From Selenomonas ruminantium subsp. ruminantium ATCC 12561 (lineage in GTDB: Bacteria; Bacillota; Negativicutes; Selenomonadales; Selenomonadaceae): DNA of 64,000 nt. The first letter of the stretch is position 1. Every line of letters starts with the position of its first letter. Under the pieces are notes generated by a model. The model made no database searches and was not told the DNA's origin. It was given only the letters and a program-made list of their open reading frames with translations. Below, piece by piece: positions 6,696 to 17,033 of this stretch. The DNA lies in NCBI RefSeq assembly GCF_000424065.1, contig NZ_AUJE01000011.1:1-64000 (forward strand), in the 5' to 3' direction. The translations under genes were made by a program, and so were the position numbers.

Positions 6696-7385
<690 letters not shown>

Positions 7386-7452: not shown

Positions 7453-8469
7453 TTAGAGGTTTTCAAAGAGTTTTATTTCATTTTTGTAAATGAATTCCTC
7501 TTTTTCCGGCAGCCGTCCATGTACCAGGTATTCAAAGGCTTTGTTGACAGCACTGAATCCTTGCCGGTAGGGGTGCTGGTAGATGGTGGCCTTGATGATG
7601 CCGAACTGCATCATTTCTACGGTGGTGGGAACGGTGTCGAAGGCGATGATCAAGGGCCGTTTTTCTTCCGGCAACTGCATGACGGCACGGCAGGTGCCGT
7701 AGACACCGGCGGCCAAAATGCTGATGGCATTGATTTCCGGATGAGCGGTTAAAAGCTCCTTGGTTTTTTCGTAGGCGTAAATGTCATCATCATTGTTTTC
7801 CAGCACGGTTGCCAGCTGAAAATCCGGCAATCGCTGCATGCGGGATTTGAAACCTTCCAGACGGAGGCGATGACCGCGCAGTTTCAGGCTGCCGAGGATA
7901 ATGGCCAGATTGGCTGTTTTGCCCACGAGCGCTTCCATCAGTGCACAGGATGTTATGCCGCCGTTGTAGTAGTCACTGCCCACATAGCAATGGCGCTTTG
8001 TACCTTCAATATCGTTGTTGACGGTTACCACGAAGACGCCTTTGTCAATCATGCGATTGATTTGGCTGACAATAGCTGGGTCATCAATGGGGTTGATGAT
8101 GAGCGCCTGTACCTGGTCTTCGATTTTTTGCAGGGTTGCTAACTGTTTGGCCGGGTCATAACCTTTCATCGTATGGTATTTTATTTGGACACCATAGATT
8201 TGATATTGGGCAGCTGCTTCTTCCATGCCCTTTAGTACATCGTCAAAGAAGGGGTTGTTCTCAGAGGGGATTACAATGCCGATGACTGGTCTTTTTTTTC
8301 GGGCTGAAAGTGCTTTGCCGGCAGGGTTGGGGGTATAGCCTAATTCCTTGGCGATTTGACGGATTTTGTCAGCGGTTTCTGAGTTTACCCGGCCGCGGCC
8401 ATTTAATGCGCGGTCTACTGTGCCTCGGGAAACACCGCATATTTCCGCAATACTTTTCATCGTAACCAT
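7453..8469 (-). CDS. LacI-family regulator of the pentose operon
   Basis: A 338-residue repressor with an N-terminal LacI helix-turn-helix (MKSIAEICGVSRGTVDRAL) and a periplasmic-binding-protein-like sugar domain from ~60. GGAGGT lies 6 nt before ATG 8469. It is the last gene of the six-gene xylB-to-lacI operon, 53 bp after the xylosidase gene. The natural inference is that it senses a pentose or xylo-oligosaccharide and binds the two palindromes in the 15.2-15.5 kb control region, making it autoregulated. The ligand cannot be read from the sequence. Confidence 0.85.
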   Translation of the reverse strand: MVTMKSIAEICGVSRGTVDRALNGRGRVNSETADKIRQIAKELGYTPNPAGKALSARKKRPVIGIVIPSENNPFFDDVLKGMEEAAAQYQIYGVQIKYHTMKGYDPAKQLATLQKIEDQVQALIINPIDDPAIVSQINRMIDKGVFVVTVNNDIEGTKRHCYVGSDYYNGGITSCALMEALVGKTANLAIILGSLKLRGHRLRLEGFKSRMQRLPDFQLATVLENNDDDIYAYEKTKELLTAHPEINAISILAAGVYGTCRAVMQLPEEKRPLIIAFDTVPTTVEMMQFGIIKATIYQHPYRQGFSAVNKAFEYLVHGRLPEKEEFIYKNEIKLFENL

Positions 8470-8522: not shown

Positions 8523-10139
8523 TCAGTCCAGTTCCTTGTAAGTGAAATAATCAAAGTCAGCGGGAAGCGCTGTGCCGGTAATATCAATGGCGTTTATGCC
8601 GACGAAAGCACCAGTGAAGAATCCGCCGCCGCGCACATAGTCATCGGAGAGTTTCCAGCTGGGCAGTTCTATGGGCAGGGTGTGGAAGGTTTCGCCATCG
8701 AAGGAATAAGCGTATTGGTAGATTCTGCCGCGCACGGATACCTTGAAGTGGACGGTCTTTACTTCATCGGGAATGGGGATTTCTGCTCCGGCAAGCGGCA
8801 TGGAGAAGGTGCCGTTGTCGGCGGTGACCAAATCGATGATACGGCCTTTTTCTTCGTTCCAGGTCACATGGATGCTGGACCAGTTTTCCGTATTGTAGTA
8901 GCAGGTAAGACCGGCCATCTGCTGGAAGGAGTTCGGAGAAAATTCCACGCTGGTTCCAGCATCGAAATTGAAGGACTGCCAGCGGCGGGCAATATGGGCC
9001 TGGGTAAATTTGGACTGCAGGGATTCGCGGCCGTACAGGCGCAGGAAGCCGGGACGGGCGGTGAGACTGCCCAAATGCTCACTGAAGGGGATACGCAGGG
9101 TCTGGAAGTTGATGTTTAAGGTGTCCTTATCGAAGTCATCGCGTTCTTCGTAAGTCGGTGCCCATTCCTGCTGGGGCAGGTCAGGTGCTTCGACTTCTAA
9201 GGAACCCTGCTGACCGCCAACGACTACGGGCCAGCCGTCCTGCCATTCGATTTTTTGGATGGCGGTTTCTCTGCCCAGCGGACAGAAGGCATGCTGTTCG
9301 CGTTCGCGGCTGGGGAAGCCGGCGGGGGCAGGCAGGGGTCTGCCAGTCAGATGGGCTAAGTACCACTGGCCGTTTTGCGTTTCGACTAATGATGCATGGC
9401 CGCATTTCTGCAGGGGGTTATGGACTTCCTTCCATGCCGACAGCAGGGGATAGTCCGGCTGTATTTCATAGGGCCCGTGGATAGTCTTGCTGCGGGCGAT
9501 GGTCTCAGAATGCTGATACGTCGTGCCGCCTTCAGCTGTCATGAGGTAATACATATCGTTGATATAGTAAAGGTGGGGACCTTCGGTATAGGCAATATCG
9601 GTACCCTTATAGATGATTTCCGGCTTGCCGATGAGTTTTTCTTCGGCTACGGAATATTCCTGCAGGGCAATGCCGTAGAAATTATGATGGTAGACGCGCT
9701 GATCCCAGTACATATTGACCAGATATTTTTTGCCGCTGGGGTCATGGAACAGGGAGGCATCAAAGCCAGCACCGTTCAGGAGTATCGGTTTTGACCAGGG
9801 GCCTTTTATGTCTTCGGCGGTGGTCAGGTAGTTATGACAATCCTTCCACATGCCGTCTACGACCTTTACATCGGTGTAAATGAGCCAGAACTTGCCATCG
9901 GCATAGGAAAGGTCAGGTGCCCAGATGCCGCCGGAATCCGGATTGCCTTTCATATCCAGAAATTCCGTGGTGGAAAGGGGATGGGCAACGAGGTGCCAAT
10001 GTACTAAATCTTTGGAATGATGAATCTGCACACCGGGGAACCACTCGAAGGTGGAGGTGGCAATATAGTAGTCATCGCCTGCCCGGACAATGCTGGGGTC
10101 GGGGTTAAAGCCTTTTAATACGGGATTTTGAATGTTCAT
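8523..10139 (-). CDS. xsa: GH43 beta-xylosidase/alpha-L-arabinofuranosidase (SXA-like)
   Basis: An intracellular enzyme releasing xylose from the non-reducing ends of xylo-oligosaccharides, with arabinofuranosidase side activity in the characterised homologue. There is no signal peptide. A five-bladed GH43 propeller occupies the N-terminal ~320 residues and a beta-sandwich the rest. The catalytic base D14 (FNPDPS), the acid E186 (AYTEGP), the third acidic residue D127 and the subsite -1 R290 all fall at the positions I recall for S. ruminantium SXA, which is also 538 residues. GGAGA precedes ATG 10139. It follows the GPH symporter by 27 bp, consistent with import of xylosides followed by cytosolic cleavage. 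Confidence 0.96.
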
Positions 10140-10166: not shown

Positions 10167-11582
10167 TTACAAGGTGCTGGCAGCCAGCTGACTGTCATCT
10201 GTGTAATGCTTTTCCTGCTGGTGACGTTGTTCCAGTTCGGTAATGATCTGATGATAGCGCTTATCGTCAAGACCATAGAAGCAGATGTCGATAAAGGCCA
10301 GAGCCAAAAAGAGGATGGGGATGATGGTCGTGGTGAGAAGAATGCCTTCCAAAGCTTCCGGTGTCTGTACCTGATTGGCCACATAGCCGAAGTGAGCCAG
10401 CATAAAGCCGGGGACAATGCCGCCGAGTGCCAGGCCAAATTTGAAGAAGAAGCCGATGATGGCATAAATCATACCGCTCAGGCGTTTGCCAGTTTTGTAT
10501 TCGCCATATTCGATGGTTTCGGGAATCAACGCCCACATAAAGCCGCCGGCGACGATAATGCCGCAGGAGCCGATGAAGCGGGCAACCATGATAGCCGTGA
10601 TGTTTTCAGCAGGCACAACATAGGTAACGGCGCAACCGATGATACCCAGAGCGAGGGAAATGCGCAAGAGATTAATCTTGCCGACTAATTTATTGAACGT
10701 GGGGACGAGAGGGAGCAGGAAAAATGCGGGGAGGGTACCGATGAGGCCGTACCACTGAATGAGGTCAGGGCGGTTGCAGTTATAGGTGACGAAGTAGGTG
10801 CCGATGGAGTTCATTACCGCCATCATGCCAAAGAGAATGATGAAGAACAGGCTCAGGACAACCAGGGGACGGTTTACCTTGAACTGTTTGAACACGTCGA
10901 CGAAGCGGAGTTTTTCCTCATTGGAGGGGTCAATCTGAATGCGCTCCTTAGTCTGGGAGAAGCAGTAGAGCAGCAAGAGGGCGCCAACAACGCTGTAAAG
11001 GCCCATGGTCACCTGCCAGCCAAAGCGGGATTCCTCACCGGTATAGCTGCCGGAAATCATGGTGACGAGAACGGGGATGCCGAAGGAAACGATAAGACCG
11101 CCTAAGTTAGCGCAGAGCATGCGGATGGAGGTCATGCTGACAACTTCCTTGTTGTCACGGGTCATAGCGGCAGTTAGCGCACCATAGGGGATATTGATGG
11201 TGGTGTATACCAACGACAGGCCGATGTAAGTCGCATAAGCATAGAGAATGCTGGCGCCTTCAGACAGTGCCGGGGTGCTGAAGCAGAGAATGCCCAGCAC
11301 CGCAAAGGGGAATGCACCGTAGAGGAGATAGGGACGGAACTTGCCGTACTTAAATGTATGCTTATCGACGAAGGTGCCGACAATGGGGTCAACAATGGCA
11401 TCCATTACGCGGACCACTAAAAACATGGTCGCCACAATTTCGGCGGGCAGTCCATAGACGTTGGTGTAGAAAAACAGCAGATAACTGCAGACTGTGGTGT
11501 AGATGAGATTGCAGGCCAAATCGCCCATGGCGTAACCTGTTTTTTCCCGCATTGACAGCTTGTAATTTTTCAATGCATCCAT
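10167..11582 (-). CDS. GPH-family (MelB/XynP-like) xyloside:cation symporter
   Basis: A 471-residue, 12-helix transporter of the glycoside-pentoside-hexuronide family. Family features include the N-terminal REKTGYAMGDLACNLIY, DPIVGTFVDKHTFKYGKFRPYLL (loop 2-3), and NIPYGALTAAMTRD. Located directly before the GH43 xylosidase, as in many xynPB pairs, it most likely imports xylo-oligosaccharides or xylosides with Na+ or H+. AAAGGAG precedes ATG 11582. The exact substrate is inferred from context. Confidence 0.9.
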   Translation of the reverse strand: MDALKNYKLSMREKTGYAMGDLACNLIYTTVCSYLLFFYTNVYGLPAEIVATMFLVVRVMDAIVDPIVGTFVDKHTFKYGKFRPYLLYGAFPFAVLGILCFSTPALSEGASILYAYATYIGLSLVYTTINIPYGALTAAMTRDNKEVVSMTSIRMLCANLGGLIVSFGIPVLVTMISGSYTGEESRFGWQVTMGLYSVVGALLLLYCFSQTKERIQIDPSNEEKLRFVDVFKQFKVNRPLVVLSLFFIILFGMMAVMNSIGTYFVTYNCNRPDLIQWYGLIGTLPAFFLLPLVPTFNKLVGKINLLRISLALGIIGCAVTYVVPAENITAIMVARFIGSCGIIVAGGFMWALIPETIEYGEYKTGKRLSGMIYAIIGFFFKFGLALGGIVPGFMLAHFGYVANQVQTPEALEGILLTTTIIPILFLALAFIDICFYGLDDKRYHQIITELEQRHQQEKHYTDDSQLAASTL

Positions 11583-11621: not shown

Positions 11622-12245
11622 TTACAAAGAGAGGTTTTCGCCTTTCAGGCCAATCCAGGCGCCGGATTTATCCAGACCGCTTTCTTCATGGGCGATAAGC
11701 CATTTGTTTTCGGCAAACAGCAAACGTTCTTCGCCCTGTGCTTTGCTGGTATCTTCGGTAAGTTCCTCATTGGTGTGCCGCGGCAGAACTACGCCGCAGC
11801 GGAATTCTTTGCCGTCAACGCCGCAGGGAGCAAAATGCAGGGTCGTGGCATAGAGTTCCACGGCGGTTCCGGCAGGTACCAAAAAGCATTCGACGTTTTC
11901 CGTATCATAGGTATAATCGTTCAGGTCAATATCCTGCTGGAGTCCGACCATCAGTACAAGGTCGGTCGCGGCGATGTCGATTTCCGAGCTGCGGTGATAT
12001 TCCAACGCATTGAGCTTGTTGTTCCAGCCGCTGCAATGACCAAATTCCACCGGCATCTGGCCGTAAACGATGTTTTCCATGGTCTGGTAAAGGGGAAGCT
12101 GTTCAAATTCAGCTACTGATGGTTCGTAAACCACTTCGCCCTGTGCCGTTACGGGATGGGCATTGATTGCCTTTACGAAATCCTGCGTATCGACATCCAA
12201 AACGCGGCCATAGATATTGAATTCTTTATCCATTACAGTTTTCAT
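11622..12245 (-). CDS. DUF4867 family protein in pentose operon
   Basis: A 207-residue soluble protein matching the DUF4867 family, which I know only as an uncharacterised, cupin-like group found in sugar operons. It has no signal peptide or membrane segment; possible metal or substrate residues lie in EFGHCSGWNNKLNALEYHRSSE and TLHFAPCG. The frame is open from ATG 12263, but GAGGTG lies 6 nt before ATG 12245, so translation probably starts there. Position third in the operon between two sugar transporters suggests a sugar-handling role such as epimerisation or anomer conversion. That is a guess. Confidence 0.75.
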   Translation of the reverse strand: MKTVMDKEFNIYGRVLDVDTQDFVKAINAHPVTAQGEVVYEPSVAEFEQLPLYQTMENIVYGQMPVEFGHCSGWNNKLNALEYHRSSEIDIAATDLVLMVGLQQDIDLNDYTYDTENVECFLVPAGTAVELYATTLHFAPCGVDGKEFRCGVVLPRHTNEELTEDTSKAQGEERLLFAENKWLIAHEESGLDKSGAWIGLKGENLSL

Positions 12246-12266
12246 TTGTAACACCTCATTCATTAA

Positions 12267-13682
12267 TCAAATACCGATATTTCTCAGTTTTTTGCCGGCC
12301 ATCAGATTCTGTTCAATCTTTTCCAGGGAAACATTTTTGGTTTCCGGTACATAATACATGGTCAAAGCGATGAACAGGCCGTTGAGTACGGCATAGAGCC
12401 AGAACGTATGGGCAGAACCCAGCGTATCGACCAGGGAGAGGAAGGTCGCACCAACGATGGCGCAGGTAATCCAGTTGGTCATGGTGGAGCAGGCAATACC
12501 GAATTCACGGCTCTTTAAGGGCTGGATCTCGGAGCAGAGCACCCAGACAATCGGGCCGGCGCTCATGCCGAAACCGGCAATGCTGACCATCGTCATGATG
12601 GCGGCCAGATAGGATACGCTGATGGGGGCATTGCCGGCTTCGAGCAGGGACATGCAGACGCCTACCACAGCCATGGCAAGGGCCATAACGGCAAAACCAA
12701 CTTTCAAGGCAGGCTTGCGGCCGGATTTATCCACCATCCAGATGGCAATAAACGTGGACAGGGTGAAGACAATACCGTTGATTACGGTACCAATCATCTG
12801 TTCTTCGGTAGTGGAGAAACCGGCAAGGCTTAAAATTTTCGGGGAATAATACATGATGACGTTAAAACCGGTGAATTGCTGCATGGCCTGCAACAGCACG
12901 CCTAAGAATACTGCACGGCGCACATTGCTGTTGGTCTTGAAGAGCTGCCAGCCGGCTTGTTTTACCTTCAGTGATTCCTCAATGTCAGTCATCTCCTCAT
13001 GAGCTGCCTGAGGATCGGGGTTAAGACTTTTGATGACCGTATCAGCCTCTTCCTTGCGGCCAACGGCTGCCAACCAGCGGGGACTGTCGGGCAGTTTGGC
13101 TACGGTGAGAATCAATACGACGGCGGGGATGGCGATAACCGTCAGCATCATGCGCCAGTTACCGGTGTAGCTGAATGCTGTATCAGAAAGAAAGGCGGCG
13201 AGAATACCTACCGTGACCATGAGCTGGTAGCCGGAAATCACCTTGCCTCGGGCGTTTTTATCGGCCATTTCGGCCAGATAAAGGGGAGCGGTATAGGAAG
13301 CAATTCCTACGGAAAGGCCCAGAATCAGGCGGGCGGCAATCAGCATATCCGCACTGCCGGCAAGGCCTGAACCTACAGAACCCACAATGAACAGGGCGGC
13401 GCCAATCACGAGACTCTTTTTCCGGCCAATGGCTTTGGCCATAAAGGAGGCACAAATCGCGCCGACAGCTGCGCCGACCATCATGGAGCTTACCACCCAT
13501 TCCTGGGCACTGCTGGAAAGATTCCATTCCTGGCTGATAAACGGCAATGCGCCGGAAATAACGCCCTGATCCAAACCAAAGAGAAGACCTGCCATACCGG
13601 CAGCAAAGTAAATGAAAAATTTAAGTCGGGAAGCCTGTTTTTCTAACTCGGTGTTTTCAATTGCTGAAGCAATGTTTTCCAC
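12267..13682 (-). CDS. MFS sugar porter (AraE/XylE type pentose:H+ symporter)
   Basis: A 471-residue, 12-helix member of the sugar porter family. Family signatures are visible: [16 protein letters not shown] in helix 1, a GRKKS loop, LPDSPRWL after helix 6, [19 protein letters not shown] in helix 7, and [12 protein letters not shown] at the end. It probably imports free D-xylose or L-arabinose. The start is GTG 13682 behind AAAGGGGA. It lies 40 bp after xylB and 21 bp before the DUF4867 start region, within the same operon. Galactose is an alternative substrate. Confidence 0.9.
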
Positions 13683-13722: not shown

Positions 13723-15216
13723 TTACAAAGCAGCTAAATCTCCATAGCATTCTTTGAGCTGATCATAAAGCTTGTTGTACAGTTTATGTACCTTGCCATA
13801 ATATTCATGGGCATCCGGTTTGGGCTGGCAGACCGAAGCCGTACCGACAAATCTCCGGCAGGCCGTGGGCACATCTTCGTAGATACCGGCGGCAACACCG
13901 GCTAAAATGGCCGCACCCAAAACCGCTCCGCCGCCTTCGCCGCCTACTTTTACCGGGCAGCCATACATATTGGCCAGCATCTGCCGCCACAGGGGACTCT
14001 TGCTGCCGCCACCGCAGGCCATCATATCCTTGACTTTGATGTTCATTTCCTGCAAAATGTTCCAGCAGTCGAGCAGGGAGAAGCTTACGCCTTCCATAAC
14101 GGCCCGCAGCATATCGGCACGCTTGTGCATAGCGGAAAGACCGAAGAATACGCCGCGGCAGTCTGGGTTGAGGTGTGGTGTGCGCTCACCCATCAGATAG
14201 GGGAGATAAATCAGGCGGCGGCTGCCGCGGGGGACGCCGGCAATGGCCTGATTGATGGCATCATAATCCATGTTTTCGGCCAGGTTTTCCCGGAACCACT
14301 TCAGGGAAAGGCCGGCTGCCTGCGTGACGCCCATGACGTGCCAGCAGCCCGGCACAGCGCAGCAGAAGGTGTGTACCCGGCCCTGCGGGTCGATAACAGG
14401 GGTATTGGTGTGGGCAAAAACTACACCGCTTGTGCCGATGGTGGTAAAGGCCTTGCCTTCCTCAACAATGCCTGTGCCAACCGCTGCGGCAGCATTGTCA
14501 CCAGCGCCGCCGGCGACAACGCAGTTCACGGAAAGACCAGTTCTCTGGGCAAATTCCGTGGAGATATGTCCGGTGACTTCCGGTGATTCAAAGACTTTGG
14601 GCAGAAGATTTTCGTCAATGTCGAGCTTTTCCAGGATTTCCTTTGACCAGCAACGGTTCGGCACATCTAAAAGCTGCATGCCGCTGGCATCGGAAACTTC
14701 CGTAGCATATTCGCCGGTCATCACAAAGCGTACATAATCCTTGGGGAGCAGGATATGACGGCAGTTGGCGTAATTTTTGGGTTCGTGGTTGCGTACCCAG
14801 AGAATCTTGGAGGCGGTAAAGCCGGTCAGTGCAGGGTTCGCTGTGATTTCGATAAGCCGTTTCGCACCGACTTTGGCGGTGATTTCCTCACATTCAGCAG
14901 CTGTCCGCTGGTCACACCAGATAATCGCCGGCCGGATGACATCATTGGCTTCATTGAGCATGACCAGGCCGTGCATTTGTCCGGAAAGGCCGATGCCTTT
15001 GATGTCTTCGGCATTTACGCGGCTCTTGGCGATGACTTCACGGATGGTACTGGCGGCAGCTTCTTCCCAGTCCTGGGGATTTTGTTCGGCCCAGCCGTTT
15101 TGGGGCTGATACAAGGGGTAGTCCGCAGAAGCTTCGGCAACCGGACGGCACTCCTCATCGTAGAGCACGGTCTTGGTGGCCGAGGTTCCGACGTCTACAC
15201 CAATCAAGTAATTCAT
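13723..15216 (-). CDS. xylB: Xylulokinase
   Basis: Phosphorylates D-xylulose to xylulose-5-phosphate with ATP. It is a FGGY-family sugar kinase of normal length (497 residues), with N-terminal phosphate loop [14 protein letters not shown], the xylulokinase motif [10 protein letters not shown], catalytic-base region [12 protein letters not shown], and C-terminal FGGY signature around [24 protein letters not shown] precedes ATG 15216. It is the first gene of the minus-strand operon and is read from the promoter at 15286-15314. Confidence 0.95.
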
Positions 15217-15251
15217 TTCAAGTTCCTCCTAAAATGGTTCTATGATTGCTA

Positions 15252-15272
15252 TTGGCGTGCTTGTGCACGCAA
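15252..15272. promoter_or_regulatory. Operator 1 of the pentose control region
   Basis: Palindrome with core GCGTGCTTGTGCACGC, just downstream of the predicted xylB transcription start. It is the exact reverse complement of the core of operator 2, 210 bp away. Likely bound by the LacI-family repressor encoded at the end of the operon. Confidence 0.7.
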
Positions 15273-15285
15273 AATAACTGTAATC

Positions 15286-15314
15286 AATATAGCACAGGAT
15301 AAAACAAGAATCAA
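15286..15314 (-). promoter_or_regulatory. Promoter of the xylB operon
   Basis: On the minus strand TTGATT (15314-15309), a 17-bp spacer and TATATT (15291-15286). The predicted start near 15279 lies just before operator 1. Confidence 0.6.
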
Positions 15315-15422
15315 TACTTTTTGTGTGACAATTTTTTATTTTATGTGACCTTAGAAAAAACCACTAATAATATTAAACCTGGAAAATATTTTTATAGACC
15401 AATAAAAATCAAAATAAAACGA

Positions 15423-15451
15423 TTGACAAGTGAATCCTATGGTGCTATGCT
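15423..15451 (+). promoter_or_regulatory. Promoter of the FucI-like isomerase gene
   Basis: TTGACA (15423-15428), a 17-bp spacer and TATGCT (15446-15451). The predicted start near 15458 lies just before operator 2, mirroring the xylB side. Confidence 0.7.
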
Positions 15452-15461
15452 TTGTACATGG

Positions 15462-15482
15462 TTGGCGTGCACAAGCACGCAA
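15462..15482. promoter_or_regulatory. Operator 2 of the pentose control region
   Basis: Palindrome with core GCGTGCACAAGCACGC, immediately downstream of the isomerase promoter. The centre-to-centre distance to operator 1 is 210 bp, close to 20 helical turns, so looping between the two is plausible. Confidence 0.7.
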
Positions 15483-15536: not shown

Positions 15537-17033
15537 ATGAGTAAGCTGACGAACATCCCTTCGGTCAAATGTGGTATTATTTCCGTAAGCCGTGACTGCT
15601 TTATTATTTCCCTGTCGGAAAATCGCCGTAAAGCAATTGTCGAGGCTTATGGCCAAAAATATGGTGAACTTTATGAAGTGCAGAAAACGGTAGAAAATGA
15701 AAAGGATATGTTAGAGGCTGTGGCAGAAGCCAAGGAAGCGGGTTGCAATGCGCTGGTGGTATTCCTCGGCAACTTTGGCCCGGAAACGCCGGAAACGTTG
15801 ATTGCCAAGGTTTTTGACGGCCCGGTTATGTATGTGGCAGCTGCAGAAGAAACGGGCAAGAATCTCATCAATGGCCGTGGCGATGCTTACTGTGGTATGC
15901 TCAACTGCTCCTATAATCTGGGGCTGCGTCATCTGAAAGCCTTTATCCCGGAATATCCGGTAGGGACGGCTGAAGAACTAGCCAAAATGATTGCGGAATT
16001 CCAGCCGGTAGCGCGTACGCTCTTAGGTCTCAAAGACCTCAAAATCATCACCTTTGGCCCGCGTCCGCAGGATTTCTTCGCCTGCAATGCGCCGATTCAG
16101 CCGCTCTATGACCTCGGTGTGGAAATCGAGGAAAATTCGGAGCTGGATTTACTGGTGGCTTATCGTGCGCATCAGAATGACCCGCGCATCAAGGACGTGG
16201 CGGAGGACATGGCTAAAGAACTCGGCCAGGAGGGCAATCCTTATCCGGAGATGCTGCCCCGTATGGCACAGTTTGAGCTGACGCTCCTGGATTGGGCTGA
16301 GGAGCACAAAGGTGCCCGCAAGTATGTGGCCTTTGCCGATAAGTGCTGGCCGGCCTTCCCGAAGGAATTCGGTTTTGAACCCTGCTATGTCAACAGCCGT
16401 CTGGTCAGCCGTGGCATTCCGGTATCCTGTGAAGTGGATATCTATGGTGCGCTCAGCGAATACATTGGCCTCTGTGTCAGCGGGGATGCCGTTACGCTCC
16501 TGGATATCAACAACTCTGTACCGAGAGACATGTTTGAGGATTCCATTAAGCCGTTTGGGCTGTACAAGTTGGAAGATACCTTTATGGGCTTCCATTGCGG
16601 CAATACGCCACTCTGCAAACTGCGTAAAGGCGGCGTGAAATACCAGCTCATTCAGAACCGTCTGCTCGAAAATGGCGGCACGCCGGACTTCACGCGCGGT
16701 ACGCTCGAAGGCGATATTGCCGATGGAGACATCACGTTCTTCCGCCTGCAGAGCACTTCGGACGGTCAGCTTAGAGCCTATATTGCGCAGGGTGAAATCC
16801 TGCCGGCAGCCACGAATTCCTTTGGCGGCATTGGCATTTTTGCCATTCCGGAAATGGGCCGATTCTATCGTCATGTGCTCATTGAAAAGCGCTTCCCGCA
16901 TCATGGTGCAGTAGCTTTCGGCCATTATGGCAAAGCTATCTATGATGTGCTCAATTACCTTGGTGTTGCGGATATTTCCTATAATCAGCCTGCGGGCAAT
17001 CTTTATCCTACGGAAAATCCCTTCCATAAATAA
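15537..17033 (+). CDS. L-fucose/L-arabinose isomerase-family sugar isomerase
   Basis: A 498-residue protein of the FucI/AraA-like isomerase fold, expected to interconvert an aldose and ketose with a divalent metal. Candidate metal and catalytic residues are the E and D of SCEVDIYGAL, the D of TLLDINN and the C-terminal His pair in RFPHHGAVAFGHYG. AAGGAG lies just before ATG 15537; the frame extends upstream to 15321 but that part contains the promoter and operator. It is divergent from xylB and shares its control region, so it probably supplies the ketopentose for XylB. No XylA-type xylose isomerase is present in the window. Whether it acts on xylose, L- or D-arabinose cannot be decided here. 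Confidence 0.8.
   Translation: MSKLTNIPSVKCGIISVSRDCFIISLSENRRKAIVEAYGQKYGELYEVQKTVENEKDMLEAVAEAKEAGCNALVVFLGNFGPETPETLIAKVFDGPVMYVAAAEETGKNLINGRGDAYCGMLNCSYNLGLRHLKAFIPEYPVGTAEELAKMIAEFQPVARTLLGLKDLKIITFGPRPQDFFACNAPIQPLYDLGVEIEENSELDLLVAYRAHQNDPRIKDVAEDMAKELGQEGNPYPEMLPRMAQFELTLLDWAEEHKGARKYVAFADKCWPAFPKEFGFEPCYVNSRLVSRGIPVSCEVDIYGALSEYIGLCVSGDAVTLLDINNSVPRDMFEDSIKPFGLYKLEDTFMGFHCGNTPLCKLRKGGVKYQLIQNRLLENGGTPDFTRGTLEGDIADGDITFFRLQSTSDGQLRAYIAQGEILPAATNSFGGIGIFAIPEMGRFYRHVLIEKRFPHHGAVAFGHYGKAIYDVLNYLGVADISYNQPAGNLYPTENPFHK

Follow-up and report, generated by a model that had tools for sequence, protein, structure and literature searches.

A probable pair of LacI-family operators over divergent pentose genes in Selenomonas ruminantium

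Candidate operator pair and gene cluster

The intergenic region between the divergent genes for a xylulokinase (xylB) and a FucI-family isomerase in Selenomonas ruminantium harbors two 16-bp sites, which most probably (we put the probability at roughly 0.87) serve as operators for the cluster's own LacI-family protein, which would repress both promoters until a pentose binds. Within the window (the whole stretch of 64,000 nucleotides that was analyzed), the xylB-side operator GCGTGCTTGTGCACGC, a near-palindrome, is located at 15255-15270 on the plus strand, and the isomerase-side operator is located at 15465-15480 on the minus strand, where the plus strand reads GCGTGCACAAGCACGC; both are exact matches and are kept in relatives. 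A preliminary description of this DNA had proposed LacI-family operators over divergent pentose genes, arranged as mirror images and engaged by a looping repressor. The operators over divergent pentose genes are supported by the analysis below, whereas the mirror image and the looping are unsupported as stated.

The cluster contains six closely spaced minus-strand genes, with xylB (13723-15216; TIGR01312, 579 bits against a cut-off of 380) as the first and the gene of the LacI-family protein (7453-8469) as the last, the position at the end of the xylB run that had been given for the repressor gene. The genes between them encode a sugar porter of the MFS type (12267-13682; TIGR00879 over cut-off, PF00083), a DUF4867 protein (11622-12263; PF16161), a GPH-family symporter (10167-11582; TIGR00792 over cut-off), and a GH43 glycosidase with a beta-xylosidase-type C-terminal domain (8523-10139; PF04616 and PF17851). 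From its context, the GPH symporter may transport xylosides, and DUF4867 is described as a member of the cupin superfamily (PMC11968277). The LacI-family regulator, which probably binds both operators, has a helix-turn-helix domain (PF00356, 48 bits; cut-off 27) that covaries with the operators and a sugar-binding core (PF13407, 154 bits; cut-off 35). On the plus strand, the isomerase gene (15537-17033; PF02952) encodes a probable xylose isomerase of the XylA-II type. A resolvase-like (serine recombinase) reading frame, named from its sequence, adjoins the end of the LacI-family gene in convergent orientation (6777-7385, plus strand). Named relatives of the locus belong to S. ruminantium and its allies.

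The two 16-mers are present exactly as had been described, that is, 15465-15480 is the exact reverse complement of GCGTGCTTGTGCACGC at 15255-15270, with a start-to-start distance of 210 bp. In the own genome (3,386,012 bases in 67 contigs), the 16-mer at up to two mismatches matches these two places only, as does GCGTGCNNNNGCACGC. When the 320-bp intergenic region was shuffled 5000 times with its dinucleotides preserved, 2 shuffles contained an exact 16-bp inverted repeat, 16 contained at least one GTGCN4GCAC, and none contained two. The sequence GTGCNYRNGCAC is found at 10 places in the own genome, i.e., at eight besides the operator pair, and none of these eight has GC on both outer arms; one of them, ATGTGCTCATGCACAA (C10:72235), belongs to the AT/TT type and is located within long open frames.

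Each window site is itself a 6+4+6 palindrome (GCGTGC-4-GCACGC), so the exact reverse complementarity of the pair rests on the four central bases only. Among the 42 genomes with at least two sites, an exact inverted pair is found in four, namely the own genome and three others (G008, G011, and G016) whose isomerases are at least 97% identical to that of the window, and one genome (G202) has two identical sites on the same strand. The "mirror-image" relation thus appears to be incidental.

Conservation and placement of the sites

The isomerase was located at 58 places in 380 genomes of the class, and the upstream DNA of 55 of these, own included, was examined (the three places left out are G281, G283, and G284). 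The divergent neighbor of the isomerase is xylB in 42 of the 55 regions, own included, and in G080 a DUF4867 gene lies between the divergent xylB and isomerase genes. At least two sites are present in 40 of the 42 divergent regions and one site in the other two (G107 and G097); a second, weaker candidate in G107, with three mismatches, was left uncounted, as was its 124-bp spacing. A LacI-family gene is located on the examined stretch in 37 of the 42 divergent regions, and 36 of these 37 have at least two sites.

Sites were picked by allowing at most one mismatch to GTGCN4GCAC and, if there was one mismatch, by requiring at least four of the six arm pairs to be symmetric, so conservation of the core derives in part from the selection of sites; the centre was not used for picking. 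Six near-matches at xylB coding positions, with one mismatch and a centre other than YR, were left out. The 93 sites obtained from 46 genomes (48 distinct sites) yield the motif NNGTGC-N-YR-N-GCACNN, in which half-site position 3 is kept in 186 of 186 half-sites, positions 4 and 6 in 185, and position 5 in 166 (all four were used for picking), and in which the outer two bases are GC or AT/TT, depending on lineage. The centre is a pyrimidine-purine step in all 93 sites and all 48 distinct ones, with the central dinucleotide being CA in 45 sites, TA in 25, TG in 20, and CG in 3. In three rearranged clusters (G040, G037, and G047), sites are located elsewhere in the cluster, and two CC-centred sites, TTGTGCTCCTGCACAT in G040 and G037, are outside the 93. 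Exact GTGCN4GCAC occurs 69 times in intergenic stretches compared to 11 times in the remaining 482,327 bases of these regions, and 8 of these 11 are in rearranged clusters in which a LacI relative is also encoded. Within the genus, GCGTGCN4GCACGC is found beside the isomerase in all 17 genomes with an isomerase and in none of the five genomes without one (two of the five are only 86% and 68% complete).

Three sites upstream of the isomerase were observed at the loci L134 (G200), L223 (G343), L224 (G342), L127 (G102), and L130 (G101). Of 242 named loci found, the best 80 were examined, and 57 of these 80 are outside the Negativicutes. On the stretches covered, none of these 57 loci has a LacI relative above 39% identity (E 1e-20), and GTGCN4GCAC lies within 600 bp upstream in four of the 57 (L166, L169, L180, and L191). 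Related palindromes, e.g., ATGTGCTCGAGCACAT with the classical CG centre, were observed near the isomerase start in L166, L169, and L180.

The predicted xylB promoter (TTGATT-17-TATATT; 15286-15314, minus strand) and the predicted isomerase promoter (TTGACA-17-TATGCT; 15423-15451, plus strand) were identified from their hexamers and from alignment, and both have TG just 5' of the -10 box. One site lies just past each predicted transcription start, as previously proposed, at 15 bp after the predicted -10 box on the xylB side and 13 bp on the isomerase side. Using the best-scoring promoter hexamers in each genome, the corresponding distance is 12-15 bp in 44 of the 45 genomes scored for the isomerase (4 bp in the remaining one) and 11-16 bp in all 41 genomes scored for xylB. 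Where a genome has three sites, this scoring was based on the two closest to the isomerase, as were the phase test and the leader folding described below; in G202, with its two identical sites, only one site was placed and no promoter from this genome entered the distance scoring. When the inter-operator stretches of 24 genomes (own included) are aligned, the isomerase promoter and the xylB -10 box stand out, the xylB -35 box is variable, and a large part of the middle shows little conservation.

Assuming a transcription start seven bases downstream of the -10 box, the first base of each site would fall at roughly +6 to +11, and a protein bound there would prevent RNA polymerase from initiating or escaping. 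In Caldicellulosiruptor bescii, sites in 5' leaders or over promoter elements are treated in the published account as a sign of repressors, a reading applied there to all 12 LacI- and DeoR-family regulators of this organism (PMC8579813). In the circuit that we propose for S. ruminantium, a dimer of the LacI-family protein would occupy each site when inducer is absent and, being bound a few bases past the predicted start, would block initiating or just-escaping polymerase at both divergent promoters. Binding of a pentose, most likely D-xylose, to the sugar-binding core would then cause the protein to leave the DNA, and this release would allow synthesis of the xylulokinase, transporters, glycosidase, isomerase, and the repressor itself. 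As the repressor gene is within the repressed run, negative autoregulation would be expected.

The probable regulator and alternative explanations

The recognition stretch SRGTVDR is identical in all 42 LacI-family sequences extracted, and the outer bases of the operators change in step with residues 27 and 29 in the DNA-binding region. The covariation set consists of 39 genomes with both regulator and sites (82 sites, 42 distinct, giving 164 half-sites), while 11 of the 93 sites were outside the count as their genomes have no repressor gene on the examined stretch. Outer GC is present in 101 of 104 half-sites where the protein has Arg27 and Asn or Ser29 (26 genomes, 6 genera), in none of 36 half-sites where it has Lys or Asn27 and Lys29 (8 genomes, 5 genera), and in 5 of 24 where it has Arg27 and Lys29 (5 genomes, 1 genus). 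This covariation follows clades (6, 5, and 1 genera, respectively) and is therefore inflated by shared ancestry, although the intermediate class with Arg27 and Lys29 makes a mere clade effect less likely. We consider it good, though not independent, evidence that the cluster protein may be the one that recognizes the sites. Residue 27 is presumably the counterpart of His29 of Escherichia coli LacI, which contacts DNA. The structure model of the LacI-family protein has a helix at residues 51-55, the expected place of the hinge helix, with a local pLDDT of about 59, and its sensory core is similar to binding proteins for glucose/galactose, ribose, arabinose, and xylose, which fits a sugar inducer without fixing which sugar.

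Against the operator reading, the centre of the sites departs from the CG typical of this family, and the two sites of rearranged clusters have a CC centre. A paralogue in the own genome (G000:C21), 51% identical to the cluster protein and also containing SRGTVDR, could in principle bind the sites as well. That the sites belong to this paralogue or to another regulator, e.g., a ROK-type XylR, is improbable in our assessment. The own-genome paralogue has Asn27 and Lys29, the type paired with AT/TT outer bases, and in the five genus genomes without the isomerase and the site the best LacI matches are relatives of the paralogue, with 46-51% identity. Moreover, apart from one loose match (L245), a YR-centred GTGCN4GCAC was absent from seven paralogue loci of 8.5-11 kb, six of which encode Asn27/Lys29 and one Lys27/Arg29. 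On these comparisons, the paralogue is disfavored as the regulator of the operator pair. The paralogue gene (locus L239, 4996-6015) lies beside a phosphomannomutase-like gene, named from sequence, and an operator of its own was not found at its locus. Alternatively, as both sites are predicted to be transcribed, both leaders could carry a hairpin (GCGUGC-ACAA-GCACGC) that acts on the messenger through stability or an RNA-binding protein. The two window leaders do fold into an extended stem (z = -1.5 for the isomerase and z = -5.75 for xylB), and the xylB leader folds unusually well because the operator flanks extend the stem. However, at least one arm position is non-pairing in 43 of the 93 sites, at the fifth pair in 17 of them, and the four central bases, which would form the loop, vary among sites. 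Among 87 leaders, none has an extended stem at p ≤ 0.05, and the mean of 1.6 extra pairs equals the 1.6 found in shuffles (G202 contributes one leader to this test, under a wrong label). There was also no Rfam match at E ≤ 1. With non-pairing arms, no conserved stem extension, and no Rfam match, we rejected the hairpin as a conserved function and regard it as highly improbable. For the xylB leader in the window (15213-15278, minus strand), none of 200 shuffles was as stable.

The operator reading itself may be extended by looping, in which one repressor complex would hold both operators at fixed helical turns and the resulting DNA loop would shut both promoters; this would add to simple operator binding and does not exclude it. 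Looping is known from the lac operon, where a LacI-family protein binds two sites at a loop-compatible distance. Across 23 genomes belonging to three Selenomonas-like genera, the site-to-site distance is 208-211 or 217-221 bp (SD 5.4); at 10.5 bp per turn, 210 bp makes 20 turns and 220.5 bp makes 21. In the same 23 genomes, the shorter distances between a site and the start codon are more variable (SD 10.8 and 11.3, with start codons estimated from protein alignment), and thus the spacing looks constrained, with two classes approximately one turn apart. On the other hand, the full range of spacing is 196-289 bp, with outliers such as 289 and 206 bp, and conservation is low over much of the stretch between the promoters in the 24-genome alignment. 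The phase test on 42 genomes (19 lineage values; G040 and G037, with pairs spaced 290 and 293 bp, are not included) resulted in R = 0.38 at the preset period of 10.5 bp, with p of about 0.07, a fit no more than suggestive, and a scan of periods of 9.5-11.5 bp was matched by 26% of null draws, while a 13-bp period scores higher. G202 was used correctly in the phase test, the inter-operator alignment, and the spacing SDs.

The protein also has no LacI-type C-terminal tetramer helix in either the alignment or the structure model. Residue 314 of its 338 residues aligns to position 309 of the 358 positions of NF007075, a model that we take to stand for E. coli LacI, leaving 24 residues, and the last elements of the structure model are a strand and a 3-residue helix. 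The Selenomonas pair therefore differs from the lac operon in lacking this helix, in its non-significant phasing, and in that each site serves its own promoter, which it is placed to block alone. Because the p-value at the preset period is about 0.07 and the period scan is non-significant, we do not claim looping, and the earlier proposal of a loop of about 20 helical turns is not upheld as stated; it is doubtful, with cooperation of the two sites by looping, perhaps through another contact, being a possible form of it. Somewhat more doubtful still is the fuller proposal that a repressor without the tetramer helix couples the promoters through a selected loop of 20-21 turns, with its outer-base preference set by residues 27 and 29. 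If true, this would provide a natural series of repressor-operator pairs whose specificity is readable from sequence.

The sugar and relation to known systems

For the isomerase, no related sequence was found in the PDB at E 0.01. Its structure model (mean pLDDT 76.7) is nearest to L-arabinose isomerases, followed by D-arabinose and L-fucose isomerases, with a TM-score of about 0.7 and 11-14% identity to these neighbors. Classical XylA (TIGR02630) was found in none of the 22 genus genomes (own included; these are drafts with a completeness of 68-100%) and in 4 of 60 genomes in all, while 6 of 14 control genomes match. In Clostridium acetobutylicum, the FucI-family protein XylA-II (CAC2610), encoded near xylB, is reported to have been shown to be a xylose isomerase (PMC2873477). 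The window protein is likewise a FucI-family (PF02952) protein encoded near xylB in a genome where classical XylA was not found, a likeness of family and gene context. Genes for DUF4867 proteins often adjoin PF02952 and FGGY kinase genes according to the text of PMC11968277, in which 434 of the 557 members of the largest DUF4867 cluster are placed in aldose/ketose contexts. Taken together, the lack of a detected XylA in the genus, the XylA-II precedent, and the DUF4867 contexts point to D-xylose as the most likely pentose, and the isomerase in the window is probably a xylose isomerase of the XylA-II type that replaces XylA in the genus. The inducer would be the same sugar, as suggested by the gene context and the similarity of the sensory core. 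Isomerase relatives with 73-79% identity outside the Negativicutes occur in bacteria of the rumen and gut from several phyla (Treponema, Clostridia, and Prevotella). One genome has a second isomerase copy, 58% identical (L142, on contig 48 of G003), and no such site was found upstream of it.

By the features tested, the circuit belongs with the local sugar repressors of the LacI/GalR family and is otherwise an ordinary sugar-repressor circuit. It shares with those described in the main text of Ravcheev et al. (2014; PMC4052901) a LacI-type helix-turn-helix domain joined to a sugar-binding core, a regulator gene within the controlled run, and operators that are even palindromes lying upstream of the linked sugar genes. 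In the same text, autoregulation is given for 72%, and the operator centre is CG for 1173 of 1303 regulators, different for 49, and degenerate for 29. The Selenomonas-type centre (CA, TG, or TA, and rarely CG) differs from this majority, in which CG is usual and not defining. Neither "XylR" nor "Negativicutes" is mentioned in the text of that paper, supplements aside. XylR of Caulobacter crescentus is described as a repressor of D-xylose genes (PMC8625115) and as "LacI-type" in the title of the original paper, as cited there; it is likewise a xylose repressor, but controls an oxidative xylose pathway.

Closer in gene content are XynR (LacI family) and XylR (ROK family) of Caldicellulosiruptor and XylR of C. 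acetobutylicum, for which the published accounts describe xylose or xylan genes, xylB, and sites in repressor-type positions (PMC8579813; PMC2873477). In Caldicellulosiruptor, however, the xylose isomerase gene is assigned to the ROK-family XylR and C. bescii xylB to the LacI-family XynR (PMC8579813), whereas in Selenomonas a single LacI-family protein has a predicted site at both genes. The literature searched, which included few subscription papers, contained no account of the motif or of a xylose repressor in Selenomonas or the Negativicutes. The operator pair and its regulator may provide a testable xylose-use regulon for Selenomonas and its relatives, together with a usable series of 39 genomes and 42 distinct sites that shows covariation between two positions in the DNA-binding region and the outer bases of the operators.
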